From NCBI RefSeq assembly GCF_900107375.1, contig NZ_FNPT01000003.1, positions 310,001-374,000 on the forward strand: a stretch of DNA of 64,000 nucleotides, written 5' to 3'. A program made the position numbers and the translations under genes. The stretch comes from Lysobacter sp. yr284 (lineage in GTDB: Bacteria; Pseudomonadota; Gammaproteobacteria; Xanthomonadales; Xanthomonadaceae). Shown here piece after piece: positions 3 to 64,000 of the stretch; position 1 is the first letter of the stretch; every line of letters starts with the position of its first letter. The notes under the pieces were generated by a model that worked only from the letters and a program-made list of their open reading frames with translations, was not told the origin of the DNA and did no database searches.

Positions 3-24949
<24,947 letters not shown>

Positions 24950-25033
24950 GACGAAGCCGAGGCAGGGCCAGGCGCGGCGCGCAGCGTCGCTGCAGGCCGC
25001 GCCGGGCGCAACCGTAGCCAGTGGATGGACAGC

Positions 25034-34000: not shown

Positions 34001-35659
34001 GCGGCCCAGGACGAGTACGCGCAGCGGGCGCCGTACATGAGCTACGGCAGTTTCGACGTGGAGCGCGCGGCGGCGGCGCAGGGCATCGAGGTGGGCGGGT
34101 TCGACATCGTCGTCGCCGCCAACGTGCTGCACGCCACCGGCGACATCGCCCGCACCCTGCGCAACGCCAAGGCCGCGCTCAAGCGCAACGGCCTTCTGGT
34201 GTTGAACGAGGTGTGCGCGACCAGCCTGTTCGCCCACGTCACCTTCGGCCTGCTCAAGGGTTGGTGGCTGTACGAGGACGCGCACCTGCGCATTCCCGGC
34301 TCGCCGGCGCTGTCGCCGGAATCCTGGCGCGCGGTGTTGGCCGGGCAGGGCTTCGGCGCGATCGGCCTGCCGGCCGAAGCCGCGCGTTCGCTCGGGCAGC
34401 AGATCGTGCTGGCGACCAGCGACGGCTGGGTCCGCCAGCCGGTCGGCGCGCAGCCCGCATCGCCGCAGGCGGCCGATACGCTGCGTGCGCCCGAGCCGCG
34501 CGCCGCGGCGCCGGCGGCGCCTGTCGCCGAGCCGGTGGCCGTCGCGCCGGCCGCGCCCGCGGTCGAGGACGAGGCAGCGGCGATCCGCCGCATCGTCCGC
34601 GACGCCCTGATCGCAACGCTGGACGTGCCCGCGCACGAACTGCGCGACGATGCGCCGCTGACCGACTATGGCCTGGACTCGATGCTGGCGGTGCAGACCG
34701 TCGAAGTGCTCAACACCACCGCGGGCACCGAGTTGACCACCACCAGCCTGTTCGACCATCCCAGCATCGACGCGGTGGTGGCCCACCTGCTGTCGATGCG
34801 GCCGCGCAGCGTCGCGCCCGCGGCGAGCGCAGCGACGAACGCCGTCGCCAGCCGCGCGGCAGCGCCGGCCGCCGCGCCGCCGCAGCCTGCGTCGCAGCCG
34901 CAGCCGGTGGCACAGGCGCCGGCGCCCGCAGCCAGCGCACCGCCCGCAGCGACCGCCGCCAGCGCCGGCATCGCCCAGGCCATCGGCCAGGCGCTGGTCG
35001 AGATCGCCGGCATCGACAGCGGCGACATCCGCGGCGACGCGGAGTTCGTCGACTACGGCATCGACTCGATGCTGGCGGTGCAGATCGTCGAAGCCTTGAA
35101 CCGGCGGCTGGTGGTCGAGCTGACCACCACCAGCCTGTTCGACTATCCGACCATCGACGCCCTGGTCGCGCACTTGCTGGCCAGCGCAAGCGGTGGCGCC
35201 AGCCCGGCGGTCGCGGCGCAGCCGCCGCAGCAAGCCCAACCACCGCAACCGCCGCAATCGTGGACGCCGCCGGCGCCGCAACCGCAGCCTGCGCCGCCAG
35301 CGGCCGTCGCGCCTCGCGCGGCGCCGGCCGCGCCCGGCGGCCTGCGCGAGCGCGTGCGCGAGGAGCTGCTGGCGGTGCTGGCGATCGACGCCGCCGAGTT
35401 CGATCCGGCCACGCCGTTCACCGACTACGGCATGGATTCGATGCTGGCGGTGCAGTGGGTCGAACGCCTCAACCAGTCCTTGCAGTTGGAGCTGACCACG
35501 ACCGCGCCGTTCGACCATCCGACCCTGGACGCGTTGATGCAGCACATCGGCGAGGACCACGCCGCGGCTGCGGCCGCCGACGCCGGCGGGAGCGTCGCGC
35601 CGGCGCCGCAGGCCGCGCCGGCGAAGCGTCGCGAGCAACCGATGAGCTACACGATATGA
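25034..35659 (+). CDS. trans-AT polyketide synthase: KS-KR-ACP, KS-DH-KR-MT-ACP-ACP-ACP
   Basis: 3541 residues from ATG 25034. An in-frame ATG at 25025 is possible, but GTGGATGG lies better placed for 25034, where the protein begins [20 protein letters not shown], a typical N-terminal docking-like helix. Approximate spans: KS (25187-26460, [22 protein letters not shown]); KR (27085-28350, GGAGGVG, Tyr in SNYSAG); ACP (28575-28800, YGVDSI); KS (28990-30245, DTACSSSL); DH (30915-31760, [12 protein letters not shown] and LLDSALQ; the usual YGPS is YGES); KR (31960-33255, GGAGGIG); C-methyltransferase (33390-34430, LEIGAGTG); three ACPs in tandem (34575-34800, 34965-35190, 35340-35560). The third ACP has Trp3475 six residues after Ser3469; the first two have Thr and Ile there. 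The protein stops shortly after the third ACP with no thioesterase, so the chain must be released by a separate enzyme or passed to a synthase outside the window. It lies 84 bases after the preceding synthase and no terminator is evident between them. Confidence 0.95.
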
Positions 35660-42857: not shown

Positions 42858-44045
42858 ATGCACAAACTCAGACTGATCGCGCAGGCCGCGCTGATGAACC
42901 TGCAAGGGCTGTCGCGCCGTCGCCTCAACGCGCTGGTGATGGTGGTCAGCATCGCCGGCGCGGTGGCGGTGTTCTCCGGGGTGCTGGCGATGAACGCCGG
43001 CCTGGACGGAGCGATGCGCGACGCCGGCCGGCCCGACCGGGCGATCGTGCTGCGCGCCGGCTCGACCGTGGAGATCGCCAGCGCGATCTCGCTCGACGAC
43101 CTGCGCGCGATCCAGAACTCGACCCAGGTGCGCAAGAACGCCGACGGCACCGTGCTGCTCACCGCCGAGGCGGTCGGCCCGATCACGTTGGTGGAGAAGT
43201 CCAGCGGGCTGGAGGTCAACGGCACCATCCGCGGCGTCGGCCCGCAGGTGCTGGCGGTGCGTCCGGAGATCAAGCTGGTCGCCGGGCGCATGTTCGAGCC
43301 GGGCAAGTTCGAGGTCGTGGTCGGCCGCCAGGCGATGGAACAGTTCCAGGGCCTGAGCCTGGGCGGGCAGGTCGCCGCCTACGGCACCCAATGGAAGATC
43401 GTCGGCGTGTTCGCGGCCCAGCACAGCATGCGCGAGTCCGAACTGATGGCCGACGCGACCGTGGTCATGGACGTCAGCCGCCGGCCGATGTTCCAGAACG
43501 TCACCGTGGTGCTGCCCGACGCGGCCGGCGTGGCCGGGTTCAAGCAGGCCGTCGCCGCCAACCCCAGCATCGCCATGGACGTGTTCAGCGAGCCGGAGTT
43601 CCTGCAGCGCGAATCGCGCAGCCTCAACGGCCTGCTCGGCTTCATGGCCTATGTGATGGGCGGGATCATGGCGCTGGGGGCGATGTTCGTGGCGATCAAC
43701 GCGATGTACTCCAGCATCGACGACCGCCGCCGCGAGATCGCCACCTTGCGCGCGCTCGGCTTCCCGCCGCTGGTGGTGGTCAGCTCGATCGTGGTCGAGG
43801 CCGCGCTGCTGGCGTTGCTGGGCGGCGCGCTCGGCGCGGTCCTGGCGGCGCTGGTGGCCGGCGGCCGCACGGTCAGCACCGCGGTCGGCGCGGACCTGCG
43901 CCAGTTGGTGTTCGACGTGTCGATGACCCCGTCGGTAGTGCTGCAGGGCTTCGCCGCGGCGCTGGCGATCGGGGTGATCGGCGGGCTGGTGCCGGCGATA
44001 CGCGCGGTGCGCAGCCAGGTCGTGGACGACCTGCGCGCGATATGA
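42858..44045 (+). CDS. FtsX/MacB-type ABC transporter permease 2
   Basis: 395 residues. It shows the same plan as the preceding gene: an N-terminal membrane segment (NALVMVVSIAGAVAVFSGVL), a periplasmic domain, then C-terminal segments including MAYVMGGIMALGAMFVAI, with the coupling pattern RRREIATLRALGFPPLVVVSS. ATG 42858 is preceded by GAGGAGG with six-base spacing; only 11 bases separate it from permease 1. Two unequal permeases with a single ATPase suggest a heterodimeric MacB/LolCDE-like complex. No membrane-fusion protein or outer-membrane channel gene is readable in the window. Confidence 0.9.
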   Translation: MHKLRLIAQAALMNLQGLSRRRLNALVMVVSIAGAVAVFSGVLAMNAGLDGAMRDAGRPDRAIVLRAGSTVEIASAISLDDLRAIQNSTQVRKNADGTVLLTAEAVGPITLVEKSSGLEVNGTIRGVGPQVLAVRPEIKLVAGRMFEPGKFEVVVGRQAMEQFQGLSLGGQVAAYGTQWKIVGVFAAQHSMRESELMADATVVMDVSRRPMFQNVTVVLPDAAGVAGFKQAVAANPSIAMDVFSEPEFLQRESRSLNGLLGFMAYVMGGIMALGAMFVAINAMYSSIDDRRREIATLRALGFPPLVVVSSIVVEAALLALLGGALGAVLAALVAGGRTVSTAVGADLRQLVFDVSMTPSVVLQGFAAALAIGVIGGLVPAIRAVRSQVVDDLRAI

Positions 44046-44123
44046 GTTCTACCCGGGCGCCGCGCCGGCGCCCACCAGGCAATCTTCCACAACGCATCCA
44101 TAAAACGCATCGAGGAAACCGCA

Positions 44124-45404
44124 ATGGCAGCGAAGGAAATCGCACGAATCTCCAGGCCCGATCCTGAGCGGTTCCTGCGCGACTACGTCCGCACGCGCAC
44201 GCCGGTGATCATCACCGACCTGTTCGCGGGCCAGCCGATCGACGCGATCCGCACGCTCCAGGACGCCAGCGCCGCGTTCGGCGGCGTGCCGATGAACGTG
44301 CAGACCGAGTACGCCGTCGCCGCCAGTTCGCCGGAGACCGCGGTCGAGACCACCATGACCTTCGACGAGTACTGGGCGCACGTGCGGGCCAACCCGGACA
44401 CCGCGCTGCTGTGCACCGAGTACGAGATCCCGGCCAGCATCATGCGCATGTTCCGGCTGCCGGAGTTCTGCCTGGCCCAGGACCTGGACGAGCCGGAAGT
44501 GCTGGACATGCCGCGCAAGTACGGCGACCACGACCTGTGCTCGAACATCTTCGTCGCCAACGCCGGCAACCGCGCCCACCTGCACTTCGACGGCGACCAC
44601 CGCCAGGTGCTGCTGCACCAGATGTTCGGCCGCAAGCAGGTGCTGTTGTTCCAGCCAGAGGCCTGCGTGGACCTGCGCACCACCTCGGGCGCGCCGTGGT
44701 CCTCGGGCGTGTACCTGGAGCAGATGTCGACTCAGGAGCAGCTGGACTTCGTCGCCGAAGTCGGCGGCTACCACGCGGTGCTCGAACCCGGCGAGACCAT
44801 CTACATGCCGGCGCTGATCTGGCATTACCTGGGCTATGTGGACGATGCGATGTCGTTCAACCTGCGCTTCCGCCGCAACCGCTTCGGCCGGTTTTTGTGC
44901 GTGGACAACTTCCATCGCGATTCCTACATCCAGAACCTGGGCTCGCATCTGGCCGGTTCCGGCGCGCACGGCGCGCTGGCCGAGGCGATGCCGCAGATCG
45001 AGGCCGAATACGCGCGCCCCGCGGCGAGCCTGCGCGAGAAGGTCAGCGGGATGCGCGCGGTGCTGCGCCGCGCCTGCGAGCAGGCCTTGCCGGACACCGA
45101 GCCGGCGCGGTTCTGCCCGCCGCAGCTGGACGCGCAGGAGGTCGACAAGATCCTCGCCGACATCGGCCAGACCGCGCGCTACGTCGAGCCCGCGCTGGCC
45201 GCCAAGTCGCGCCCGACCGGGCCGCTCAGCCCGGTGCAGAAGCAGACCATCCAGAACACCGCCGCGCGCCTGGGCTATTCCGACGAGGCGCTGGCGCACC
45301 TGCTGTGGAACCGCCTGGGCAAGTCGCAGCTCGACGACCTGAGCAAGACCGAGGCCGTGCAGTTCATGGTCTACATGCGCTCGCCGGGTTCGTCCCTGCG
45401 CTAG
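44124..45404 (+). CDS. JmjC/cupin-8-like Fe(II)/2-oxoglutarate oxygenase
   Basis: 426 residues. A cupin-8/JmjC core is indicated by FVANAGNRAHLHFDGDH, giving an HxD pair (His154, Asp156), and by the distal His234 in YMPALIWHYLG followed by FNLRFRRN. These are the facial-triad ligands and the 2-oxoglutarate-binding region. The C-terminal 150 residues are helical and could form the dimerisation or substrate-recognition part seen in related hydroxylases. Likely reaction: hydroxylation of an unactivated carbon in the polyketide/peptide chain, possibly while carrier-bound. GAGGAA lies just upstream of the ATG. It is the last enzyme of the accessory run. Confidence 0.88.
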   Translation: MAAKEIARISRPDPERFLRDYVRTRTPVIITDLFAGQPIDAIRTLQDASAAFGGVPMNVQTEYAVAASSPETAVETTMTFDEYWAHVRANPDTALLCTEYEIPASIMRMFRLPEFCLAQDLDEPEVLDMPRKYGDHDLCSNIFVANAGNRAHLHFDGDHRQVLLHQMFGRKQVLLFQPEACVDLRTTSGAPWSSGVYLEQMSTQEQLDFVAEVGGYHAVLEPGETIYMPALIWHYLGYVDDAMSFNLRFRRNRFGRFLCVDNFHRDSYIQNLGSHLAGSGAHGALAEAMPQIEAEYARPAASLREKVSGMRAVLRRACEQALPDTEPARFCPPQLDAQEVDKILADIGQTARYVEPALAAKSRPTGPLSPVQKQTIQNTAARLGYSDEALAHLLWNRLGKSQLDDLSKTEAVQFMVYMRSPGSSLR

Positions 45405-45446
45405 CTCCCTCCGCCGTCCTTCCCTTTGCTGCCAAGAGACATCCGC

Positions 45447-45941
45447 ATGCGAGCCGATATCCAGAGCGTATTGAAGACCTGGGAACGCGAGAACGAGACC
45501 ACCCTGGAGGTGTTCGCCCGGGTGCCGGAGGGGCGCAACGAACAGACCGTGGTCCCCGACAAGGGCTGGACCCTGGGCGGGCTGGTCTGGCACATCTGCA
45601 TCAGCGAACGCTGGTTCTGCGCCGAGGTCATGGGCGCGCAGCCGGGCGGCGACAACGAGGTGCCGGCGGACGAAGTGCCGGCGACGGTGGCGGAGATGAC
45701 CGCGGCGTTCCGCCGCTCGCACGCGGCGCTGATGCAGGCGGTGGCGGAGCGCGACGAGGCCTGGGTCGACGAGAGCGTGGATTTCTACGGCAATCCATGG
45801 ACGCGCATGGAGCTGCTGAACCTGATGCTGCGCCACGAAGCGCACCACCGCGGCCAGCTCAGCATCCTGATGATGGTCGCCGGCGGCCAGCCGCCGACGA
45901 TCTACGGCGCGCCGGGGATCAACCTGGAAGACGCGCTGTAA
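45447..45941 (+). CDS. DinB/YfiT-like four-helix metal-binding protein
   Basis: 164 residues from ATG 45447; a TTG 21 bases upstream is a weaker alternative. The DinB-like superfamily pattern is visible: GWTLGGLVWHI with a first His, then LMLRHEAHHRGQLS with the two closing His ligands, giving the usual three-His metal site. Members include thiol-dependent transferases and damage-inducible proteins of unknown activity. A thiol-S-transferase role for detoxification or tailoring is conceivable, since it directly follows the cluster genes in the same orientation, but nothing in the sequence fixes it. The gene is followed by a strong inverted repeat. Confidence 0.86.
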   Translation: MRADIQSVLKTWERENETTLEVFARVPEGRNEQTVVPDKGWTLGGLVWHICISERWFCAEVMGAQPGGDNEVPADEVPATVAEMTAAFRRSHAALMQAVAERDEAWVDESVDFYGNPWTRMELLNLMLRHEAHHRGQLSILMMVAGGQPPTIYGAPGINLEDAL

Positions 45942-45958
45942 CCAGGGGGTCAGCTCTT

Positions 45959-46055
45959 TGTAGGAGCGGCGCGAGCCGCGACCGCGAGTCCGCGGCTACG
46001 GCGAGGGTTTCGTCGAAGGCGCGAGTTCGCGGTCGCGGCTCGCGCCGCTCCTACA
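45959..46055. terminator. 29-bp perfect inverted repeat between convergent genes (REP-like / bidirectional terminator)
   Basis: Bases 45959-45987 are the exact reverse complement of 46027-46055, separated by 39 bases. Each arm begins or ends in the TGTAGGAGCGGCG/CGCCGCTCCTACA type of sequence. It lies between the + strand DinB-like gene and the - strand hydrolase, where a bidirectional terminator is expected. Related arms are widespread intergenic repeats in Xanthomonadaceae and pseudomonads, so it may also be a mobile REP-type element. No other copy was seen in this window. Confidence 0.8.
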
Positions 46056-46079
46056 GGCGCCAGCGCGACTGCGCGGGGC

Positions 46080-46868
46080 TCAGTCCAGGAACCGCATCAC
46101 CGCGTCGCCGACCTGATCCATCTGTTCGAGCTGGGGGATGTGCCCGGCGTTGTCGACCAGCAGCGTGCGCGCGCCGCCGATGCGCGCGGCGAATTCCTCG
46201 GCGTAGACCGGCGGGATCATCCGGTCCTGCCGGCCCCACACGATCAGGCTCGGCGCGCTGATCCGGTGGATCCGCCGCGCCAGCCCCTTGTCCGGGATCG
46301 GCCAGGTGAACTTGCCGGCGCAGGCCAGCGCCCAGGTCTTGCGGATCACCCGTTCGATCGCCGCGTCGCGGTCGCGCGGCACCGCGAACATGATCTGCCC
46401 GACCAGGCCCTCGGGCTGGGCCACGGTCCACTGCGGCAGCTGCGCGGCCGGAATCGACCACCAGTTCGGCACCGGGTGATCGTCGCGCCACAGGCCCGCC
46501 GGGGCGATCAGCACCAGCCGGCGGATGCGCGCGCGCGCATGCGCGGCCAGCTCGGCGGCGAACATGCCGCCGATGGAATGGCCGGCCACCGCGACCGAAT
46601 CCAGCCCGAGCGCGTCGAGCAGTTCGTCGAAGTACAAGGTCAGGTCCCAGACGTCGCGCAGCTCGTCGATCTCCTGCTCGGCGCCCGGGCTGGTGCCGGG
46701 GAAGTCGGGCGCGTAGACGGTGAAGCGCTGCGCGAGCCGGTCCAGGAACGGGTCCCAGTGGCCGCTCTCGCCGTGCAGGAACAGCAGCGGCGGGCCGCTG
46801 CCGCACACGTCCACGCGGGTGTTGATCCGTCCGTTCCACGCGCGCACCACGCGCTGCTCGATGTTCAT
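46080..46868 (-). CDS. alpha/beta-hydrolase fold protein
   Basis: 262 residues. LLFLHGESGHWDPF gives the oxyanion-hole region, the nucleophile Ser lies in GHSIGGM, the acid is the Asp in WGRQDRMIPP, and the terminal His is in NAGHIPQLE. This is a complete canonical triad of the hydrolase/meta-cleavage-product group. The start ATG 46868 overlaps the stop of the upstream - strand reading frame (ATGA); an alternative in-frame ATG lies at 46880. It converges with the DinB-like gene across the 29-bp inverted repeat. It is a second candidate for chain release or product hydrolysis in a cluster with no fused thioesterase. Confidence 0.92.
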   Translation of the reverse strand: MNIEQRVVRAWNGRINTRVDVCGSGPPLLFLHGESGHWDPFLDRLAQRFTVYAPDFPGTSPGAEQEIDELRDVWDLTLYFDELLDALGLDSVAVAGHSIGGMFAAELAAHARARIRRLVLIAPAGLWRDDHPVPNWWSIPAAQLPQWTVAQPEGLVGQIMFAVPRDRDAAIERVIRKTWALACAGKFTWPIPDKGLARRIHRISAPSLIVWGRQDRMIPPVYAEEFAARIGGARTLLVDNAGHIPQLEQMDQVGDAVMRFLD

Positions 46869-47002
46869 GCGCCCACCCATCCCGGCTGCGCCGGCGCCGG
46901 CGGCGCGTTGCGCGCACCGCGCAAGCGCTGCGGCCACCAGCGGTTCTCCCAGCCCTCGTCGTCCCAGATGCCGCGCAGGTGCGGCAGCACCTCGCTGCAG
47001 AA
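46865..47002 (-). CDS. C-terminal fragment of a probable luciferase-like (LLM) flavin monooxygenase, 5' part unreadable
   Basis: About 45 residues reading FCSEVLPHLRGIWDDEGW followed by ENRWWPQ and a Pro-rich end, terminating in a TGA that overlaps the hydrolase ATG. The (R)LFxxEVLPxLR pattern resembles the C-terminus of luciferase-like flavin-dependent monooxygenases; this is recognition from memory of a short stretch, so the family is tentative. Upstream of about 47,000 the sequence enters the compositionally abnormal tract and the rest of the gene, perhaps 0.9-1 kb, cannot be read reliably. If correct, it is another oxygenase tailoring candidate co-transcribed with the hydrolase. Confidence 0.45.
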   Translation of the reverse strand, partial: FCSEVLPHLRGIWDDEGWENRWWPQRLRGARNAPPAPAQPGWVGA

Positions 47003-50000
47003 CAAACGAACGCGCAGGAGCGCCAGCGCACCCCGCACAGAGCCAACCACCAGCAGCACCAGCAGAGGGCCCACCCCCACCGGGCGAACCGAACCCGCCA
47101 CCACCGCCCGCACACGGCCCCGGCCCCAGCCCACCACAAACGCGGCGCCCACCAAGCCAGCGAACCTGAACCACCGAAGCCGCGAACGCACCCGGCGCAC
47201 CGCCGACACCGCCGAGAGCAGCCAGCGCACCAGCCAACGGCAAGCCGCCGGCCCCCGCCGCGCCAACGCGCACGCAACGGCCGAACGCGGCGCCTAGAAC
47301 GAGCAGACGCGACCCCAGGACGAGCAACAGGCCGCGGCCGCGCGCCCGCCCACCGCCAACAGCGACAAAAACCAGGCCCGACAGGCAGCGCCGTCCGGCC
47401 AGCACCGCCACGAGAACGCCCAGAACGGCGACAGCAAACGCCGACAGAACCGAAGGCAGGGGGAGGACAGCAAACAAGACCAGGACGCGCGCCGGCCACA
47501 GAAGGCCCAGGTCCGGAGCCACCCGATCCCCGGCACCCACATCCGCCGCCGCGGACCCAGCAGCCGCCGACGCAACAGGCGCACCAGAGGCAGCGCGACG
47601 CACGCGCCCGTCCAGACCAACGCCCAGCACGCCCACCAGACCGTGAAGATCACCGCCGGCGACGCCGAAGACCACGCCCGCACCGCCACCGCCGCGACCC
47701 CAGAACACGACGCCCCGCAAAAAGGCGCGCAAACCGGCAAGCACCCAAAAATCCCCACCCCGCCCAGCCAGGCCAGCAACCCACACGCCGCCGCGACGAG
47801 AACCCGCCGCCACGCGCGAGGCAAACGCCACCCGACCGGCAACCAGGACACGGCCACCGCCCAGCGCCGCCGGGACAGCAACCCGCCCAGAAGCCTCCGG
47901 CCCGAAAGCAGCCCGCACGCCCAAGGCGGGGGCGCCGACACGCAGACGCCCGCGAACCCGCAACGCGCGCCCGAGACCAGCCCCGCCAACGACCACGCCG
48001 AGAACCCGCCGACCCGCGAGCACGCGGGCAACGCAGACCAGCGCACCCCGACCCAGACCGAGCGGAGGCGCGGCTCCAAAGCCCACGCCAGAGCCCGCAA
48101 CGCCAGCAGGGGCAACAGCAAAACCCTCACCGCCCCCCGTCCCGACCGCGAGCCCCGCGCCCCGGCCACCGCGACCAGTGACGACGCGCACGCAGGCACG
48201 ACCCCCGGGCCCAACCCGCACCGCCGCCCAAACCCGGCCGCCCCCGGACACCACCGCGGACGGCACGACCACCCGCGCGCCCCGGCCCCCCGCGACGAGG
48301 GGGACCTCGCCGGCGAGGCCAGCCACCACCGCACCCAGCGGGACAAGCCAACGGACGGGCTGACCAACCCGGCGGCCAAGGAGGCCACGCTCAAACCCGC
48401 CCGCCGCGCCCCCCCGCCCCGGACAAACGCGCCGAAACGCCGCCCGAGCTTCGCAACCAGCGAGCCGACCAGCGGAAGAACCAACCGGCAAAAGAGCGCG
48501 CCGCACGCGCCAACCAACATCCACCACCCCGACGCCCCGACCGTCGCGAAGCCCGCGCCCATCACCGCCCAGCAACGCCGCCAGCCCACACCCACGGGCC
48601 AATACGCAGACACCCACAGCAACGCCCCGAAGCCGAGCCAGCCAACCGCCTCGAACGCGCCGAAGGGCCCGGCGGTCGCCCCGGCGGCGAAGGGACGACC
48701 CCAAGCGCCCAGCAGCGAAAGCAACAGCCAAACCTTCGGCCCCAGGCCCAACCGCACCCAGTCGGGCGCCGAGACGGGCGCAAACAAACCGAAGAAGGCG
48801 GCCACACACACCAAGCCAACCGCGAAAGAGACCAAACCCACACACCGAACGCCCACGAAAACCCCCCCAAACACCAGCCCCGCCAGCACGCCGCCGAGGA
48901 AGAAACCCAAGGCCAGCATCAACAGGCGAAGCGAACCCACAGCCCGACCGTACACCGGCCGCGCAAAGACGCCCGGAGAAAGCACCCCCAGGCCCAGGCC
49001 CACGCACACCGCACACAGCCGGTCGAACACAGCACCGACAGAGCGCCGAGACAGAACGACCGCCACCGCAAGCACAAGCCCGCACAGACCGGCCGAAAAG
49101 CCCCAGCCCACGCCGACAACCGCCCGCCAGAGAGCGAACGCAAGGAGAAGCACAACGCCCCCCACCACCCCACCCCGGCCCACGCAAAAAGCGCCCAGCC
49201 AGCGGCGAAACGCAAGCGCGCCGACACCGCGAAGCCCCCGATCAACGACCGCCACAGCGGCAGCGCCGAACAAGCCACCGAACAGAAACGACGCCAAGCC
49301 AGCCCCGGAGCGGAACAGCACTACGCCGACCACCACGGCGGCGCCCAGAACCCTGAGCCCAACCCCCAAGTCCAAGCCGCCCCGAAGGCCCGCCAGCACC
49401 TCACCGTGCCCCCGATCGAAGAAAAGAAGCAGCCGAGCCGGGTACAGCACCGGCGCAGGCAGGCCAATCCGACCGCCACGCAGGAAACCCTGACCCAGCA
49501 GACCCAGACGGTCGACCACCTCGTCAAAACCGCCCAGGTCCGGGCGAACCACGGAAACGCCGCACCGACCAGGACCCAGGCCCCCGAGAAAGCCCACGGA
49601 AACCACAGGGCAAGGCAGCAGCGCTAGAACGCGCCGACCAACAGGAACACGCAAGGCTCCACCACCACGCCCCTCAACCCAAGCGCAAACCGGCCAACGC
49701 GCCCGAGCCGCCACCCGAAGAAGGCGGACGCCGGCCCAGCCCCGCCGGCAAGGCAGACCGAACCAACGCACTGGACGTCAGCCGCGCCGAACCCGCCGAC
49801 AGCGCAGCCAGCGGACAGCGAGCCAAAAAGGAATGCAACGGCCAACACCGCCAGGCGAACACCCAGCCGAAACGCGACCGCACGAAAGGAAGCAGACTCC
49901 ACGGGCTCCCCCCCCCCACCCAAAACAGCCGACGCGTCGAGGCCGCCGAACCCACCAACGCCTTCGGCCACGCCGCCACCCTGGCCCCGCCCAAACCCAC

Positions 50001-53000
50001 GCTGGCCCGGCGGAACGGGGCGATAAAGGCCAGCCCAAAAAGCGGCGCAATCGGCACCCCAGCCACCAGACACCCGACCAACAAGGTCGGCAGGCCCGTC
50101 GCCCCGGGAGCCCACAACGAAGGGCCCCGGCCAAAGCCGGCCGAAGCGCCAGGCGCCAACAGGGAAGAGACCACGGCCATCCACCAGAACGTGGCCACGG
50201 GCGGAGAGATGGAGCAGCGGCGACCCGAAACGCCCGGGGACAAGCAGAACACCGACAAAGTCGAGCGCGGGACCAGCGCGCACACAGAAAACGCCCGAGA
50301 CCAGCCGCACGACCACACCCGGGCCAGGAAAAGCCAACCCAGGCACGACAGAACGCGACTCGCAACCCACAGCGACCCAGGGGCCGGCCAGCACCGGCAA
50401 CACGCCCCAGGCCCCGGCCGGCGGAACCGCGAACCCCACGCGCACCCGCGAACCCAGCGCGGGGCAGCCACCGCCGTCGCCAGAAACAGCAGAGCCAGCC
50501 CGCCGGGCCAAGCCAACGCCGGACACGAGACGCTCGCGGCCGCGCACAACCCAACAGACGCGGCACCGGACCGCGGCGACCGACAAAACAGTACGGACAG
50601 GCACGCTCACGGTCACGCACCAATGGCCCCCGGCCCACGCCAACAGGACCACGCAGCCCTCCCCCCAAACCTCCACCACCACCGGCACCACCCCCTCCAG
50701 CGCCAACCCCGCGTAGCCCACCAACCACTCGATCGGCGCCGGGAAGACGAACCGCACCACCACGAACAGCGCCCAGGCCACGCGCTTGCAGGAGTACCCG
50801 TCCCACCCCACCCGGACCAGCCCGAACGGGTCCACCACCGCGACGCCGTCGGCGACCAAGCCGCGCTCGGGCAGGCCCACGTCGGTGAACACCTGCGGCA
50901 CCACGATCCAGCCCGCCCCCCCGACCTTCGTCGCCAACACCAACACCCCGAACACCACCGCCACCACGACGGTCGGGAGCAAACACACCACCCCCACCTC
51001 GAACCAACCCACGACCAGCTCGACGCTGCCGAAGAACGAAGCGAAGAGCACCACCGCCACCACGATGCGGAGGCGGAACCCGGCGAACACCCGCCAGAAC
51101 AGCGGGCCCTCCGCGCCCCACACCACCTCCACCCGCGCGACGCCGAACACCAGCGCCACCGCGCCGAGCAGGCCCCGCGAGTACAGCCCCACGACGAGCA
51201 CGAACACCACCAACGCGAAGAGCGCGGCGAAGGCGGGCACCCCGAAGCAGCCCACGCCCACCTCCACCACCAAAGCCGGGCCGAACGCGAGCAACAAGTC
51301 GCGCATCCTGACCAACAGGCCGAGCACGCCCCGCAACCCGGCCCGACGCAGCGCCGCCAGGATGACCCCGGTGACGAGCACCCGCGGCCCGAACAAAGAC
51401 CAGCCCAGGACCCAGCCCAACACCCGCACGGCGGCCAGCAGGGCGCCCGCGTCCCCCGCCACGGCCGCGCCCGCCGCGACCGCCAGGAACTGCGACCACG
51501 CGCCCAACCGGCCCACCACCGACGCGCCCGCGCAGACCAGCAAGACCCAGGACACCGCGCCCACCAGCCCCCGCCGGCGAACACCCCCGCGACGCTGCAC
51601 CATCAGCGCCGCCCCCAGGGACGGCCACCCGGCCCCCCCGGCCCGCGCAACGAACACCGTCGCGAACAAGCCCGAGCCCAGCATGTCCCCGGCCAAGGAC
51701 AAGGTCTGGGCGACGACCACCCCCAGGCACAAGGCGCCCACGCCGAGGATGGAGAGCAACGGCACCAACACAAGCAACACCACCGCGCCCAGGCCCCACT
51801 GCACCGAGACGACGAAAACCAGCAGCAGCACCACGACCCCCCCGAGCATGCCCCGCCACAGCAGCCCCGAGAACACGCCGTCGAGCAGGCGCACCGAAAG
51901 CAACCACAGCCAGAACAGCACCAAGAACAACACCGACAAGAAAAAGCCCCCGAAGCGCAACGCAACCACGGAAACCGCCACCCCCACGACCAGGGACACG
52001 GCGAACAAGCCAAAGCCCAGGAACCAGAACACCGCCAGCAACAACTGGCAAACCAACACCGGCAGCAGCACCAGGCCCACCAGGCACACCACCGACAGCA
52101 CCCCCCAGAAGCGCAGGACCGCCACCGCGCCGCCCTGGCCGGCCAAAAACACCACCAACCCCCGCACGAAACCCGACATCCAGAAGGCCACCGACGCCTC
52201 GGCGACGACATAGGCCACGAAGCCCACCAACAACAGCCGCACGTCCCCGCCCAGCAACAGCCGCAACTACGCCCCCAGCGCGCCGGCGACCTCGACCGCG
52301 CGCACAGCCAACGCCGCCACCAGCAACATCCGCCGCAGCACCCCCACCACCAAGAAGGACACGGACAAAAACCAAAACAACGCCAACCAAGCCAGCCCCA
52401 CCCCCGCCACGTCCAGGACGAACAGCGACGCCCGCAACGCCACCGGGCAGAAGAACGACACCAGCCCGAACACCACCTCCGCCATCACCGAGAAGAACGC
52501 GAAGTCCCGCACCACCACGGCCGCGCCCACCAGCGGATGGATCACCAACCCCACCACCAACACGCCCAGCCCAACAACGAAAAAGCCGACCACCAACAAG
52601 ACAGAACCCCGCACCAGCGCGACCCCCACCGCGCCGGCAAAACGCAGCGAGAACCACCCGAACAAGGGGAACCGGAGCCCACGCCCAAAGAGCAGGAGCC
52701 CGCAGCGGACCCAGACCAGGCCGGAACCGACGAAGAACGAGAACGCCACGAACCAGGCCAGAGCAACGCCCAACCGGAACTCCCACAGCCAGAACGCCAG
52801 CAAAGGCCCAACCAGGTGGGCGAGGAAGCACAGCGCCAACCACAACAACAACACCAACAGCACCACCAACGCCCACAGCGCCACGAACGGGACCCCGCGG
52901 GAAAGACCCCGCCGGCAGACACGGCCCAACAGCCACACCACCGACACCCCGAAGCCCGAAGAGAGCCACAACAGCCGCAGCGACGCGCCAACCCGCGGCC

Positions 53001-56000
53001 AGCGCCGCGCCCACACCACCCCGGAGCAAGCCCACCCCAACAGAACCCGGGGCGAAACCAGCACCCGCAACCACGCCCGCAAAGACCCCGCCAACCCCCT
53101 CCGGGCCGGAGCGACGCCGAAGACCAACCACGCCGACCACAGCGACAGCCACGACCACACCCACCACCAAACCCACCCCAGGCTGCACCAGACCAGCGAC
53201 CCCCCGAACCCCAACAGCAAGCCCACGGCCGCCGGCAACCAGCAGAGCGCCAACAGCGTCAACCACCACAGCCCCGCAACGGCCCAGCCAGCCCACCACA
53301 GCACGAAGCACAGCAGCCAGCCAACCGGCAGCACCACACCCAGCGCCCAGCGCAACATCATACACCCCCCCAAAAACCACAGCCAGCAGCGCACCCAAGC
53401 GCCCGAGCAGCCCCGCAACCACGAAAGCAGCCACGAAAACAACGACCAGGCCCCGCGCAGCCAGCGGCAGATGCGGCACAACGAACCCGGGAACGACGGC
53501 ACGAAGATCGCCCCAACGACCAAAGAACGGACCACCCCCGCCCGGACCAAGCAGCCCGACAGAAAGGCGGGGCTCACGAGCGCAGGCCCGCAGATCCACC
53601 CGGAGGCCAGCCAGTGGAACAAGCACACACCGGACAAACCCGTCCCCCCCGACCCCGCCGACCAGAACAGGGCCGAGCCCAAGAGCACGGCCGGCGAGGC
53701 CGCAAGGGACCCCCGACCCGCCGCCACCCAGATCACCGCGCGGAACAACACCTCCAGCCCCCACCGCGCGCAAGCCCGCCACAGCGACAACAACCAGCGC
53801 GACGCCAACACCACCGACCAGGCCGAAACCCGGCCCCCCGCCACGCCCAGGACCACGCCGGGAAGCGGAGCGGCCATCCCCCAGGCCAGCCCACGAAACG
53901 CACCCCGACTCAGCCCCGCCAAGAAAAAGACCAAGGGCAACACGAACTAAAAGCCGCCCCCCCCAGCAACCGCGCCGTGGCCGACCAGCAACGCCGACGG
54001 CACGCCCACCAAACAGGCCTTCAGCACCCCCACAAGCCCCCGCGACAGCACCCAGCCGATCCACAGCACCGCCCCGCCAAGCAACCACCACGCCCCCTCC
54101 AGCAGGAAAAACACCACCCCCGGCAGCGCCGGCACCGCGCCGACCCGCACCCACCCGTCCAGCAGCAGCGCCACGTCGACCACGCCCCGCACCAGCGCCG
54201 CCGCCACCAACCCCCACAGCACCACAGACCCCAGACCGAACACGGGATCGATCAGCCACACCCCATCCAGCACCCGCGCCAACGCCGCCACGCACCACCG
54301 CGACAACAGCAGGCACCCGACCGCGACCAGAGGCTCCAACCAAGCCGCGATGCCGACCGCCAAGTCCACCAGCCCCAGCCCCCCCGCCAACAAAAGCAGC
54401 GACAGATACAGCTCCAGCCAGCCCTGCACGACGCAATACCACGACAGCCCCCCGCACACCACCAGCACCGCCCCGACCTACCAGGCCAGGCCGACGGCGA
54501 ACAGCCACACCGAGACGACCACGAACACCGAGCAGACCAAACACACCCCCACGCAAAAGGACAAAAACAGGCCCAAAGGCCACGCCACCCCCAACAGCGC
54601 CCCCCAGAGCACCCCGGCGACGAGCGCGACGCCGAGGAACAGCACCACGACGGCGGCGACCAAAAAGCCCACGAGCACGCACAGGTCCCCCCAGCCGTCC
54701 AGCCCGCCCGGGCCGACGAAGAGAACCACCGCAACCCCGACCGGCCCCGGCACGGCCACGCCCAAGCCCCACACCCACACACGCACCCGGCCGCGAAACG
54801 CGCCCACCAACACCACCACCACGCCCAGAAAGGCCCCGAGGGCACAGCCGCGAAGAAGCACCTCGAAACCCGCATCGACCCCGACCACCAGGCTGACCAC
54901 CACGCCCAAGGCCACCCACGACCCCAGCCGAAGCCCGACCGAGTAACCGGCCGCGCGAAAGAACTCCAACGCAAACGCCGGAAAGCCCCGCACCGAAAAC
55001 TCCCTAAACCCACAAGAAACGACAACCCCAAAGGATTCCAGCAAGCGGGCGAGAAAGCCAACCGCCTCCAGAATCAGCGAGACCTCCACCCGCAAGGCCC
55101 TGCGCGAGGACGCGACGCGCGCGCAGACAAAACCCAGCACCAGGCAACGCCGAGAGCACCCGCTCGACCGCCGGCTGGCGCCACCACCAAGCGACAAAAG
55201 GGGCGAAAACCCACAAACAAGCGAAAGGCAACCCGCCGCACAACGCAGACAGCCAGCTCAAGGACAACAGACAAAACACCGCGACAGCGAAAACCGGCGA
55301 GGTCCACAGCATACCCAGAAACGGGCCCAGGACCGGGTCGCCGCAGGCCGACAACACCCGCCAACCGGCCCACGCCACCATGGCCCGGCCCGAGACCAGC
55401 ATGCGGCACCCGCAACCCACCGCCGAACCCAAAGCCACACCCAACACCACGACCCAGAACAGCAAGCCCACCGAGCCCAGCCACAGCCAGGCCAACAACC
55501 CGCCCCCGGAGCCGCACAGCCCCAACCACGCCAGCCGCCAAGACACCGACCACACCAGGCAGACCAGCGACACCAGCCACCCCAACGCCAACACGAACAA
55601 GCGCCACAACCCCCACGAGCAGCCCCCAGCCCACCAAAGCGCGAAGCACAACAGCGAGGCCAGCGGCAACAGCACCCACACCCAGCAGGACCCCAGCTAC
55701 CAGCGCCAGAACCGCAACAGCAAGCGGCAGACCCGCGCGCCGGCCGCGCCGCGCACCGACGACACCAGCCACGCCACCAACGGCCAGCAGCCGCGCAGCC
55801 AGCGCAAGCGCAGCCGCAACACCGAGGAAGACGACCGCGACAAGCCGGCGCGCAAGACCACGCCCACGACCAACGCCGCGCGCACCGGGCAGCACGCCAG
55901 CACCGACAAGGGCAACGACCTGTCCCACCCGACCCAGCCCAACAACATCAAGCCGAACCAGGCCACGACGGAGAACCCCGTGCCGACCAACGGCACCCAG

Positions 56001-58440
56001 CCGAACAAGTCCAGGTCCGCCGCCCACGGCCGCCAGGAACAGGCCGACGACGAGCCGGTCTCGAGCGCCAACAACCACCACACCAGCCTCGACACGCACC
56101 GCGACGCCGACACCACCGACAGCAACAAAGGCGCCACCCCCGGCACCAGCACAAAGCCCACCGCCAACCAAACCCCGGCCGCCACCAACACCGCCCGGTA
56201 CAGCGCGGCCTGCAGCACCGCCGCCAGCAGCGCCACCGCACCACGAGCCAGCGCCGAGATGCCCGCCGAGAGCACCAACACCCACCGCCAACCCGACACC
56301 GCCCACAACCCGCCCGACGCCGAACGCAACGACGAGCACCCGCCCAACAGCAAGCCGCAAAACTGCGCCAACGGCAAACACAACAGCACCCACCACAACA
56401 ACGCGCCCACGCCGCGAGTCCAGCGGCACAACCCCAGCAGCAGCCCGAAACACCCCCACGACCCGCCCGAGAGCGCCGCGAGCCGGACCCAGCCCCACCA
56501 CACCAAGGCCGCGTCCCCCACCGACGGCGCCCCCCGCCCGTACAACAACGCCGACAACACCGCACAGCCGGCGACCACCCCGCCCGCGTACACCGACAAC
56601 GAACCCAACCACCCCCCCAGCCAACACGCGCCCGACCCCAACACCACCACGCAGAACAACGACACCACCATCACCGACGCGGCCGCAAACCCGGACGCCA
56701 ACGCCAGCCACCGCAGCCAACGCGAGCAAAAAAGCAACGCCACCGACAAGGCGATCCAACGCTGCACCATCCCGCACACCAACAAAACCGCCAACAGCAC
56801 CAAAGCCGAAAGCCCGCACCAGGCCACCCGCAACGCGAACAAGCGCAGCGACAACAGCACGTACACCAAGCACAGCGAGAACAACGACCGCCAACAGCCC
56901 AACAACACCGGCCAGGCCCACAGCAACCGCAACCGGACCCGCCACCCCAAGCCCGACCCCAGCGCGACGCCCAACGCGCCCAGCCCCACCAACACCACGA
57001 AAGAGCCGAAGAGCGCCCGCCAGACGCCCGCCCCCGGCAGCTCCAACGCCAGCACCGCCACGGCCAGCACCGACACCGCGGCCGGCACCGCCGTACCCCC
57101 CGACCCCGACGCCCAACACTCGAGCCGCGCCCAGCAATCCAGGCCCCACACCACATCCATGCGCGACGAGGTCACGGCGAGGTCGCCCCACAAAACCCCC
57201 TCAACCGCCCCCGCCCCCCAAGCGGCCGGGCCACCCCCGCCCGCAACCACCCCCACCACCAGCCAACCCGACCCCGGAGAGCCACGCGAAGCGCGGCGAG
57301 ACCCGCCGCCCCACCCCGCCCCGAAACGCCGCGCCGGACTACCACGACGACAACACCCCCCAGGCGCGCAACAAGACGGCGGCGACCCCCGCGAGGTCGC
57401 CCAAGGCGCCCACGAGCACAACCACGCAGAGTGCCGCCACGCCATCCGGCCCCGAAACGAAAACCCCCACCCACAACAACGCCCCGAACGTGGGCGAACA
57501 AGACAGCACGCAGAGCCCGATCAACAGCGCCAGGTACACCGCAAAGAAGAACACCAGCATCGAGCGCCGCGCCGACCCCGTGCGCAGCCCCCCCAGCAGC
57601 TCCGACAACGTGAACCACAGCACCCACCCCAGCAACCGGCCCCACCACTCCGCGGCCGCATCGACGACCACCGCGCGCACGAAACCGACCACGAGCACCG
57701 CGCCCGCCAACGCCCACACCACGCGCAAAGCCAGGAACTTGGCCAGAGGCATCCGCAACCCGGCGGCCACCGCCAGCGCCACCACCACGACGGCGGAACG
57801 CAACAACAGCACCACCAGCATCAGCACGCGCAACGACACCCACACGAACGCGGCCCGGAAATCCAAACCGAACAACGCCTCCACGAACAGGACCCACACG
57901 AACAACGCGGAAGAAAAACCCACCGCGCCCCCCCCCATAAACCCGAACACCAACACCGGCGCCAGGTGGCCCCCGAAGCCGACCCGCACCGCCGAGACGA
58001 CCAGCCCGAACAACGCCCGCCGCGCGAAAGCGCCCACCACGCGCCGGCCGGAAAAGACCACGCCCAACCCGACGTCGAGAAGGCCGCAGTCCAGCAGCCC
58101 AGGCAGAACCAAAGCGAAAACGCGAGCCACCAACGCCGCGCAGCCCCACGACTGCAGGCCGCACGCAGCCAACCAGAAACCGAAAACAGACAAAGCCCGC
58201 GAACCCAAAGAAGCCCCCAGCACCACGCCCCCCACGCCGGGACCCGAACCGACCAGCAGACCCAGCAGCGACATCCATCCAGCCGACGATCCCCGGCCAA
58301 CCCCGACCACGCCACGGCCGCCGCGCCCGCACAAGCCAACCACAACAAACCCCCGCGACCCCGCGACGAACCGCCCAACCAAGGCATAACAACGAGCCGC
58401 CGCACGCCCCGCCCGCCCGACTCCAGCGCCCAACCCCGCC
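47003..58440. other. compositionally abnormal 11.4-kb tract; no gene can be supported
   Basis: The + strand is almost devoid of T (2-3% in samples, against about 14% in flanking genes) and rich in A and C. G+C is about the same as elsewhere. Because stop codons need T on the + strand and A on the - strand, all six frames are open for long distances, including a nominal 2732-codon + frame; these are not evidence of genes. A codon-position signal survives in at least one - strand frame around 51.9-52.3 kb, so - strand coding sequence probably underlies part of it. The base frequencies fit a position-by-position lowest-letter merge of two different sequences. Left edge about 47,000 (inside the probable LLM gene), right edge about 58,390-58,460. 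What genes lie here is unknown. Confidence 0.85.
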
Positions 58441-58484
58441 CGGACAATCCCCTGCCGTACACCGACACCCATTGCCGGAATCGC

Positions 58485-60368
58485 ATGGACAGTGACGACG
58501 CGAAGTCGGACAAGCACCGCGCTCCGGTACTGCAGCTGTACCGGGAGCTGTGGGTCCAGGCCAAGGGCCGCCGCGGCGCGTTGCTGAGCGCGATGGCGCT
58601 GCTGGTCGGCGCGCAGGTGGTGCTGCTGGCGGTGCCTTACCTGGTCGGCAAGGCGTTCAACATCCTGCAGGCGCGCGGCAACGCCGGCGCCGGCGAAGCG
58701 GCGCTGTGGCTGGCGGCGGTGCTCGGCGCGACCCTGGTCAGCTGGCTGATCCACGGCCCGGGCCGGATCCTCGAACGCAACGTCGCCCTGAGCGTGCGCG
58801 AGCGCGTCGCCACCGCGTTGACCGGACGGCTGCTGGCGTTCCCGCTGTCGTGGCACGACGGCAACCATTCCGTCGCCAGCGCCCACCGCGTGCAGCAAAG
58901 CAGCTCGTCGCTGGGCACCTTCGCCGAAAGCCAGTTCATCTACTTGAGCAGCGCGGTGCGGCTGATCGGGCCGATCGGCGCGCTGATCGCAATCCATCCG
59001 CTGGTCGGCCTCACCGCCGCGCTCGGGTTGCTGGTCATCTGCGGCGCGGTGGTCGGCTTCGACCGCGCGATCGTGCGCCTGGCGATCCAGACCAACGACG
59101 CCGAACGCCGCTACACCGCGGTGCTGGCCGACGCCCTGGGCAACGCGACCAGCGTGCTGGCGCTGCGCCAGGCGCGGCCGTTCATCCGCTCGCTGCGGCA
59201 GCTGGTGGAGAAGGTGTTCGAGCCGCTGCGGCGGATGATCGTCATCAACGAGATCAAGTGGTGCGCGGTCGACGTCGCCAGCCGCCTGCTCAGCTGCTGC
59301 CTGGTCGGGCTGTACGCATGGCTGGTGCTGCGCGCGGCGGGCGACGGCCAGAAGCTGATGCTCGGCAGCGTCTACATGGTGTGGGAATACGCGCTGCAGT
59401 CCGGCGCGGTGGTCGCGGCGGTAGCGGCGAACTTCCAGACCTTCGCCACCCAGTACGCCAACTACCAAAGCGCCGACGTGATCCGCGACCACCCCGTCGA
59501 CGAGAGCCTGCACGAACCGGCGCAGGCGCAGCAGTGGGATCGTTGCGAGATCCGCGACCTGGTGTTCCGCCACGTCGCCGGGCGCGAGGCCGGGCCGACC
59601 CTGGACCGCATCCGCCTGGACCTGCGGCGCGGCAAGCGCTACGCCTTGATCGGCAGCAGCGGCTCGGGCAAGAGCACGCTGATGCGGGTGCTCGCCGGGC
59701 TGTACGTGGCCGAACGCATCGTGGTCGCGCCGGATGCGCGCGAGGCCAATGCCGGCGACGGCGACGCCACCGTGCAGGCGCCGCTGAAGGCCGCGCGCTA
59801 CCTGCGCGGGTCGACCACGCTGATTCCGCAGGAAGCCGAATTGTTCGAAGCCTCGCTGGCCGAGAACCTGGCGATGTGCGAATCCCTGCACGGCCAGCCC
59901 GATCCCGCCGGCTTCGACCGCGCCCTGGAACTGGCGACGGTCAAGGATTTCCTGCCCGCCGACGGCGATCCGCTGCAGGTGTCGATCGCCGAACACGCCT
60001 CGAATTGGTCCGGCGGCCAGCGCGCGCGCGTGGCGCTGGCGCGCGGCATCCTGGCCGCGCGCGGCAGCTCGCTGATCCTGCTCGACGAACCCACCGCCAG
60101 CCTCGATGCGCGCACCGAGGCCGCGGTCTACGCCAACCTGTTCGCCGAATTCGCCGACGCCTGCCTGATCGCCTCGGTGCACCGGCTGGACCTGCTGCGC
60201 CACTTCGACGAAGTGCTGGTGATGGTCGACGGCCGACTGGTGGCGCAGGGCTCGGAGGCGCAGCTGGCGCGGACCTCGAGCGATTACGCCAGCCTGCGCG
60301 CGGCCAGCCTGCGCCAGGGCGAATCGGGCGAACCGGCGGCATCGTTGGCCGAGGACGCGGCCGGCTGA
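58485..60368 (+). CDS. ABC exporter (fused membrane and ATP-binding domains)
   Basis: 627 residues. The N-terminal half carries a six-segment type membrane domain, for example ALLSAMALLVGAQVVLLAV and LIGPIGALIAIHPLVGLT. The C-terminal half is a nucleotide-binding domain with Walker A GSSGSGKST, signature WSGGQRAR (Trp in place of the usual Leu), Walker B LILLDEPTASLD and H-loop SVHRL. It is a half-size exporter that would act as a homodimer, likely expelling the product or conferring self-resistance. ATG 58485 begins normal-composition sequence, just past the abnormal tract; nominal upstream extension of the frame into that tract is not credible. It converges with the Rieske beta-subunit gene. 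Confidence 0.94.
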   Translation: MDSDDAKSDKHRAPVLQLYRELWVQAKGRRGALLSAMALLVGAQVVLLAVPYLVGKAFNILQARGNAGAGEAALWLAAVLGATLVSWLIHGPGRILERNVALSVRERVATALTGRLLAFPLSWHDGNHSVASAHRVQQSSSSLGTFAESQFIYLSSAVRLIGPIGALIAIHPLVGLTAALGLLVICGAVVGFDRAIVRLAIQTNDAERRYTAVLADALGNATSVLALRQARPFIRSLRQLVEKVFEPLRRMIVINEIKWCAVDVASRLLSCCLVGLYAWLVLRAAGDGQKLMLGSVYMVWEYALQSGAVVAAVAANFQTFATQYANYQSADVIRDHPVDESLHEPAQAQQWDRCEIRDLVFRHVAGREAGPTLDRIRLDLRRGKRYALIGSSGSGKSTLMRVLAGLYVAERIVVAPDAREANAGDGDATVQAPLKAARYLRGSTTLIPQEAELFEASLAENLAMCESLHGQPDPAGFDRALELATVKDFLPADGDPLQVSIAEHASNWSGGQRARVALARGILAARGSSLILLDEPTASLDARTEAAVYANLFAEFADACLIASVHRLDLLRHFDEVLVMVDGRLVAQGSEAQLARTSSDYASLRAASLRQGESGEPAASLAEDAAG

Positions 60369-60968: not shown

Positions 60969-62246
60969 TCATGGCGCGGCGGCCATCAGCTCGCGCCAGC
61001 GCTGCCAGAACACCCGCGCCGGCAACTCGTCGGTGGTCTGCGGCACCTCGCGGTTCATGCCGCGCGAGAGGTTGCAGTAGTCCACGCTGCGATTGGCGAA
61101 GCCGAGCTGGCAGGATTCGACGATCTCGATGTCGTCGGGCGTGGCGAAGCCACCGGGGCCGAGGAAGGTCAGGTAATGGCTCAGGCGCAAGGCGCGCAGC
61201 TCCGGCGCTTCGTCCTTGGGCGCCATCGCCCAGGAGGTCACCGCCAGCGCGCCGGGGCCGACCGGGTCGATCTTGCGGATGGTGATGGCGATCGCGTCGA
61301 TGATCATCAGGTTCGGGAACACCAGCAGCGCCCGGTTCATGCCGGTGATGCGCTGCGCGCGCTGCGCGCCGAAGCGGTCGATGAAGTGCTGCCGGGTCGC
61401 CTCCATCTGCGGCTTGAGCGACTCGTCGAACATCGGCGTCCAATGCGCCAGCGGCCGCGCCGCAGCCGGCGGCAGTTCGTTGGCGGCGTGGCCGTTGCCC
61501 AGGTCGCGGGCGAAGCCGCCGCGCTCGCGCGGCGCCTGCGAGCCCATCGACTCCATGTAGTCGACATAGCGCTTGTGCAGGGCGCGGAAGTGGTAGAGAT
61601 CGACGCTGTTTTCGATCAGCAGCTTCCAGTTGGCCTTGGCCCCGTGCAGTTGGGTGCCGCGCACGACTTCCATACCGACCTCGGACTGGTCGGCGATCAG
61701 GTCGAGGTACTCCTTCGCCTCGGCCAGATAATCCGACAGCGAACCCGCGCCGGCCTCGTCGAAGGCGATGAAGACGAAGCCGCGGTAGCTGTCCATGCGG
61801 TGCTGCTTGAGCGCGTAGTCGGCGCGGTCGAAGCAGTCGCCGTAGGCGTCCTGGCCGGGCACCCCGATCAGTTCGCCCTGGTTGGAATAGACCCAGGAGT
61901 GGTATGGGCAACGGAAGGCCTTGGCCGTGCCTGCGGCCTCGCGGCAGACGAACGCGCCGCGGTGCATGCAGGTGTTGGCGAACACCCGCACCGCGCCGTC
62001 GTCGCCGCGCGCCAGGATCACCGGCCGCCCGCCGACGTTGCGGGTGGCGAAGGCGCCGGGAGCGGGCACTTCCGATTCGTGGCCGACGTAGAGCCAGCAG
62101 CGGTCGAAGATCCGTTGCTGCTCCAATTGCGCGATGTCCGCGTCGACGTACGCGCGGCGGTCGACCAGGAACGAGGCGCCGGCGACGTCTTCCAGCACGA
62201 TCCGGCTGACGTCCACAGTATTGGATGGGGTGGCCGGCGCGCTCAT
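60969..62246 (-). CDS. Rieske non-heme iron oxygenase alpha subunit
   Basis: 425 residues. Rieske [2Fe-2S] ligands: Cys93 and His95 in NTCMHRG, Cys113 and His116 in CPYHSW. Mononuclear iron ligands: His219 and His224 in DLYHFRALH, with Asp216 as the bridging residue between the centres. Length fits the large subunit of two-subunit ring-hydroxylating oxygenases. It could hydroxylate or desaturate an aromatic or aliphatic position; a phenyl ring is expected in the product if the NRPS module loads Phe, making aromatic oxidation attractive but unproven. Its start overlaps the stop of the upstream glycosyltransferase gene (ATGA), and the beta subunit lies downstream, so the three genes form one operon. 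Confidence 0.95.
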   Translation of the reverse strand: MSAPATPSNTVDVSRIVLEDVAGASFLVDRRAYVDADIAQLEQQRIFDRCWLYVGHESEVPAPGAFATRNVGGRPVILARGDDGAVRVFANTCMHRGAFVCREAAGTAKAFRCPYHSWVYSNQGELIGVPGQDAYGDCFDRADYALKQHRMDSYRGFVFIAFDEAGAGSLSDYLAEAKEYLDLIADQSEVGMEVVRGTQLHGAKANWKLLIENSVDLYHFRALHKRYVDYMESMGSQAPRERGGFARDLGNGHAANELPPAAARPLAHWTPMFDESLKPQMEATRQHFIDRFGAQRAQRITGMNRALLVFPNLMIIDAIAITIRKIDPVGPGALAVTSWAMAPKDEAPELRALRLSHYLTFLGPGGFATPDDIEIVESCQLGFANRSVDYCNLSRGMNREVPQTTDELPARVFWQRWRELMAAAP

Positions 62247-63942: not shown

Positions 63943-64000
63943 GCGGCCAGGCGCGGGCGGTCGCGGACGGCGCGCTTCAGTCCGCGCCGTTCGCCGGGAA

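Follow-up and report, generated by a model that had tools for sequence, protein, structure and literature searches.

The window analysed here, a 64,000-nucleotide stretch of the Lysobacter sp. yr284 assembly, carries in its left part a 6,495-codon open frame (5462-24949) that adjoins a modular polyketide synthase of 3,544 codons (25025-35659, + strand) with ketoacyl synthase, KR, carrier, dehydratase and methyltransferase domains, and the two mark a secondary-metabolite cluster approximately 11 kb away from the tract with which this report is concerned. An element of ~100 bp at ~45959-46057 has dozens of partial and full matches on both strands of its own and of same-genus genomes; its copies are ~74-89% identical over most of their length and often lie adjacent to each other on opposite strands, and from these matches it looks like a dispersed palindromic repeat family. 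The clean left flank of the tract (44000-46997) is followed by the tract itself (46998-58447, with no assignable strand) and by an equally clean right flank that opens with an ABC transporter gene, here called R (58485-60368, + strand). For ~9 kb after the ABC transporter (from ~60405 to the window end at 64000 and on, G000:C29:370405-379419 in the coordinates of the strain's own assembly) there is no counterpart in the collinear region of the relative G008; the segment includes a Rieske/ring-hydroxylating dioxygenase-like gene (60969-62246) and is either an insertion here or a loss in that relative.

The tract stands out by its base composition. An exact count over the 11,438 bases from 47003 to 58440 gives 3128 A, 5253 C, 2801 G and 256 T (0.273, 0.459, 0.245 and 0.022), compared to 0.134, 0.366, 0.362 and 0.137 in the 52,535 bases counted outside it, and the G+C content hardly differs from that of the surroundings. 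The edges are sharp, with a best fit of 46998-58447, and the limits of 47003 and 58440 given in the preliminary description were right to within a few bases. Its hand counts were equally serviceable: the 300 bases at 51946-52245 contain exactly the 93 A, 135 C, 66 G and 6 T reported, and those at 53581-53700 contain 30 A, 52 C, 35 G and 3 T, a single C more than had been counted. Its remark that G+C is nearly unchanged holds. In overlapping 500-bp windows across the whole stretch and a further 460,190 bases of the same assembly (two of these stretches overlap, and 4,668 of the bases are N), the absolute AT skew exceeds 0.6 in 45 of 2,068, and all 45 lie inside the tract; the 460,190 bases sampled from the 6.25 Mb assembly thus hold no further example, and five 20-kb loci of relatives reach 0.40 at most. 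The first 998 bases of the tract match contig C29 of the whole-assembly copy at 100%, showing that the tract is present there as well; its place on that contig is C29:357,003-368,440.

The depletion of T removes stop codons and thereby creates long open frames. Stop triplets in all six frames number 61 in the tract, compared to between 139 and 256 in four stretches elsewhere in the window and to 250 and 307 in the two homologous sequences described below. The resulting frames include one of 2,732 codons (50191-58389, + strand) and one of 1,713 codons (49778-54919, - strand), both spurious; no Pfam family was found at E <= 0.001 for these two or for a third tract frame of 825 codons. Another, of 1,662 codons (55380-60368, + strand), is chimeric: the genuine ABC transporter is preceded, in frame, by approximately 1,030 spurious codons. 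Frame length as such is not peculiar to the tract, given that the polyketide synthase region of the window has longer ones.

The origin of the tract is revealed by comparison with a relative. A search with either flank across 100 genomes, the strain's own and those of 99 relatives, gave matches at E <= 0.001 in 68 of them for the left flank and in 91 for the right, mostly as short pieces. In G008, a same-genus genome consisting of one contig, both flanks are present at 94% identity on the minus strand: the left at G008:C1:3107158-3110180 and the right at 3093772-3095693. The two enclose ~11.46 kb of ordinary sequence, X', which is continuous with the left flank. A second stretch of 11.5 kb, Y', starts ~30 kb after the start of X' and lies immediately upstream of R', a second copy of the ABC transporter gene. 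Ungapped scores were computed for 38 pieces of the tract, each 300 bp long, along both strands of G008 in four 20-kb stretches that overlap one another; the model takes each printed base to be whichever comes first in the alphabet, the homologue's base or an independent one. Scores were above zero for 37 of the 38 pieces on X' and for 34 on Y', with both series collinear along the tract; the failing pieces start at 47003, 48803, 51503 and 58103 for Y' and at 52703 for X', and gapped alignments place indels in each of them. Best placements elsewhere in the G008 stretches score about -40 to -130, the exceptions being stretches that overlap X' or Y' and an internal duplication of X'. The latter has a lag of 2,338 bp and yields second placements with scores of up to 109 for the tract pieces from 53003 to 57202 (reverse strand of locus L033, ~10843-15043). 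In G002, a further relative from the same genus, the locus runs parallel to the X part, with positive scores for 29 of the 34 pieces between 48203 and 58402; four of the 34 fall below zero and one has its best match off the diagonal, and the four pieces from 47003 to 47903 do not match it.

The tract is the position-by-position alphabetical minimum of two sequences, X, which is native to this place, and Y, which is unrelated to it in that register. The rule was examined through the homologues X' and Y' rather than the strain's own X and Y, each aligned separately and with gaps to the tract, and the misfit of 7.5% is attributed to divergence. Both homologues are present at 11,413 of the 11,438 positions, and at 92.5% of these the printed base is the earlier of the two in the alphabet. 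On the same sites a bitwise AND of two-bit base codes fits 70.9%, X' by itself 63.4%, Y' by itself 60.8% and the alphabetical maximum 31.7%, which rules out the maximum and either source alone. Restricted to the 7,880 sites at which X' and Y' differ, the minimum accounts for 92.0%, the maximum for 3.9% and either source letter for 95.9%. All six unordered pairs print the earlier letter: A for A/C (957 of 1031), A/G (1079 of 1160) and A/T (574 of 616), C for C/G (2534 of 2768) and C/T (1002 of 1061), and G for G/T (1101 of 1244). The bitwise AND, which would deplete T as well, is excluded since it demands A and not C from the C/G pairs. The printed letter is no later than that of X' at 98.7% and no later than that of Y' at 97.6% of the 11,413 sites, species divergence included.

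Because the alignment model itself rewards printed letters that do not come after the homologue's in the alphabet, the control that counts is a shift of register. The fit of 0.925 in register drops to 0.53-0.56 with either partner one base off and lies at 0.57-0.61 for other shifts. Simulated divergence predicts 0.935 for 6% in both sources, 0.920 for 6% and 9%, and 0.912 for 8% in both, so that the observed value requires no exceptions to the rule. Along the tract the fit per 500-bp step ranges from 0.89 to 0.98, with 0.85 in the short last step (434 sites), where the Y' alignment has several gaps. X' and Y' agree with each other at 31% of sites, which is the level expected by chance and rules out that X and Y are paralogues in register. 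The composition follows from the same rule: the minimum of two independent bases with the background composition of the window would give 0.250, 0.501, 0.231 and 0.019 for A, C, G and T, while the compositions of X' and Y' themselves predict 0.278, 0.458, 0.241 and 0.023, from which the tract deviates by no more than 0.005 per base. The preliminary description had suspected a base-by-base merger of two sequences that keeps the first letter and had proposed a comparison with the min-of-two composition; that suspicion is borne out, as G008 holds the homologues of both sources intact.

The strain's own assembly lacks the second source, and it does so at a contig break. The sequence that precedes Y' in G008 matches C29:390964-395590 of the strain's own assembly at 95%. 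C29, with a length of 395,622 bases, is homologous to G008 up to 395,590, the point at which Y' begins, so that the contig ends at the place where Y would be expected. What follows Y' in G008 is found on contig C20 from its first base on, collinear and at 91% identity. Set against G008, the pieces fall in the order left flank, X, R, remainder of C29, Y, R' and C20, and the place of Y is between C29's end and C20's start, ~27 kb beyond the tract's right edge in this assembly (~18 kb in G008). Searching the own genome with Y' and the sequence before it found no close copy of Y'; apart from the match at the C29 end it returned the tract itself at 63-66%, a 755-bp match on C21 at 69% (G000:C21:71311-72065) corresponding to the nucleotidyltransferase-like gene of Y', and short matches. 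The search with X' likewise found no close copy in this genome, returning only the tract (65-71%) and short matches. Judging from these comparisons, Y is lost from the assembly at the gap between C29 and C20 and appears only where it is laid over X. By eye, six of the last bases of C29 fit the rule when set against the start of Y, a run too short to count. The earlier diagnosis of a misassembly or mixed consensus agrees with this picture.

The right edge of the tract adds a further element. R has a paralogue both in the strain's own genome and in G008: R' lies at the very start of C20 with 89% identity to R, and in G008 it occupies 3063883-3065781, again at 89% and ~30 kb beyond the R copy. 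C20 starts ~240 bp past the beginning of the similarity between R and R', and its start shares with R an identical run of at least 87 bp. The tract ends ~20 bp before the start of that similarity, and the Y' alignment ends ~22 bases out of register for a superposition of R' on R, at the edge where the alignment is least certain. X and Y thus both stop near the start of the same gene.

The tract is an assembly artefact and not biology; DNA of this sequence is not real. Almost certainly it arose when Y was laid over X, with both ending near the duplicated ABC transporter gene, and a consensus of the two kept the first letter. X and Y both run into similar copies of this gene, R and R', which would be the basis of the confusion: during assembly or finishing the contig of Y may have been taken as an alternative to X and overlaid so that the two right ends came to lie near R. 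With exactly two sequences in the consensus then written, each disagreement would have been a one-to-one tie, and at each tie the first of A, C, G and T would have been kept. Exactly two sequences suffice for the rule, given that every conflict is then a tie and the output becomes the alphabetical minimum; a consensus script that takes the first maximum would likewise yield the printed letters. Two features sit awkwardly with an overlay: 11.4 kb at a chance identity of 31% is odd for an assembler to accept, and the left end is explained only by the contig of Y ending there.

Writing two-base IUPAC codes (R, Y, S, W, K, M) and afterwards reducing each to its first letter would print the same sequence. 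In this version the merger is the depositor's, the record carries the codes and the letter rule stems from their later reduction, in the copy analysed or at an earlier step; we regard it as plausible, if somewhat short of probable. In the 854,868 bases of the window and the loci no letters other than A, C, G, T and N occur; a reduction of codes on storage would lead to this, but the finding favours neither route over the other. A tie-broken vote needs no such second step. The preliminary description had put forward this collapse as giving exactly the observed rule; it was right as to the letters, but they do not single out that route, since a majority vote that settles ties in ACGT order prints the same ones.

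The other explanations fare worse. A natural T-depleted and strand-asymmetric tract, produced by mutation, editing or an unusual element, could claim the composition alone in its favour, and it is practically excluded by the simultaneous fit of the tract to two different sequences from a relative's chromosome (92.5% with a single letter rule) and by the pair table, in which one of the two source letters is printed at 95.9% of the differing sites; the ceiling of 0.40 in the skew of the relatives' loci and the absence of the second sequence at a contig break point the same way. A scan of genome contigs for the letter pattern of the tract found no independent copy, the own or near records possibly lying outside the scan, and the left flank, searched against plasmids, matched 5 records only in part and at 60-80% identity. 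Deliberate alteration outside the depositor's pipeline would have been easy to script, given so simple a letter rule, and the tract is found in the genome copy as well as in the window, yet it is very improbable: Y is missing from the remainder of the assembly at the break between C29 and C20, and the two sources run out near the duplicated gene, as an assembly event predicts.

The overlay of Y on X, two stretches of chromosome printed over each other, has destroyed the genes of the tract and makes any protein translated from it spurious; with X and Y taken together, ~23 kb of genuine sequence are unreadable from this record. By homology to X' the losses include a luciferase-like monooxygenase and a NodU-like protein (under that model's cut-off), and by homology to Y' a nucleotidyltransferase-like protein, a glycosyl hydrolase 9, a ROK protein, a PfkB kinase, an MFS transporter and a TonB-dependent receptor. 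The nucleotidyltransferase-like gene (KNTase_C and NTP_transf_2 domains; L035:4163-5044, + strand, in the Y' of G008) is located just before R'. Of 8 mechanically picked frames in X', 6 are without a Pfam family and 6 without an NCBIfam family; of a further 10 frames, 2 are without a family. The assembly (46 contigs) is listed as 100% complete and 0.35% contaminated, which means that such checks are blind to the fault. Overlays of unrelated contigs, A/C-rich and nearly T-free on one strand, may conceivably go unnoticed in other reference genomes that are rated complete and seed protein databases with long spurious frames, a prospect that we consider rather unlikely. The composition signature provides a cheap screen for the same fault elsewhere. 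As the fault is an artefact of the record its biological interest is low, and its value lies in recognition and screening.

The literature searched yielded no paper that we recognised as describing such a fault or this genome, and its likeness to known faults and procedures is partial. It resembles the repeat-induced misassembly that leads to collapsed or chimeric contigs, in that two loci with a similar gene in common (R and R') are mistaken for each other and one of the two disappears from the assembly. It differs from it in that the merged parts are not mutual repeats, being identical at chance level only, and in that the overlay is made base by base, whereas neither part is dropped or joined to the other end to end. 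An IUPAC-coded consensus of two sequences reduced to first letters is alike in its printed output, and unlike the plain tie vote in its additional step and in the ambiguity letters that such a consensus would carry, of which the bases inspected contain none. The 'vote (A, C, G, T)' setting of CLC Genomics Workbench breaks ties in ACGT order, according to the manual. A passage in PMC3664089 names this setting among the consensus options of the program; none of the material found ties this genome to CLC Genomics Workbench. The majority vote with ties broken in ACGT order is like the tract in the letters themselves: applied to two sequences it turns all conflicts into ties and prints the alphabetical minimum.
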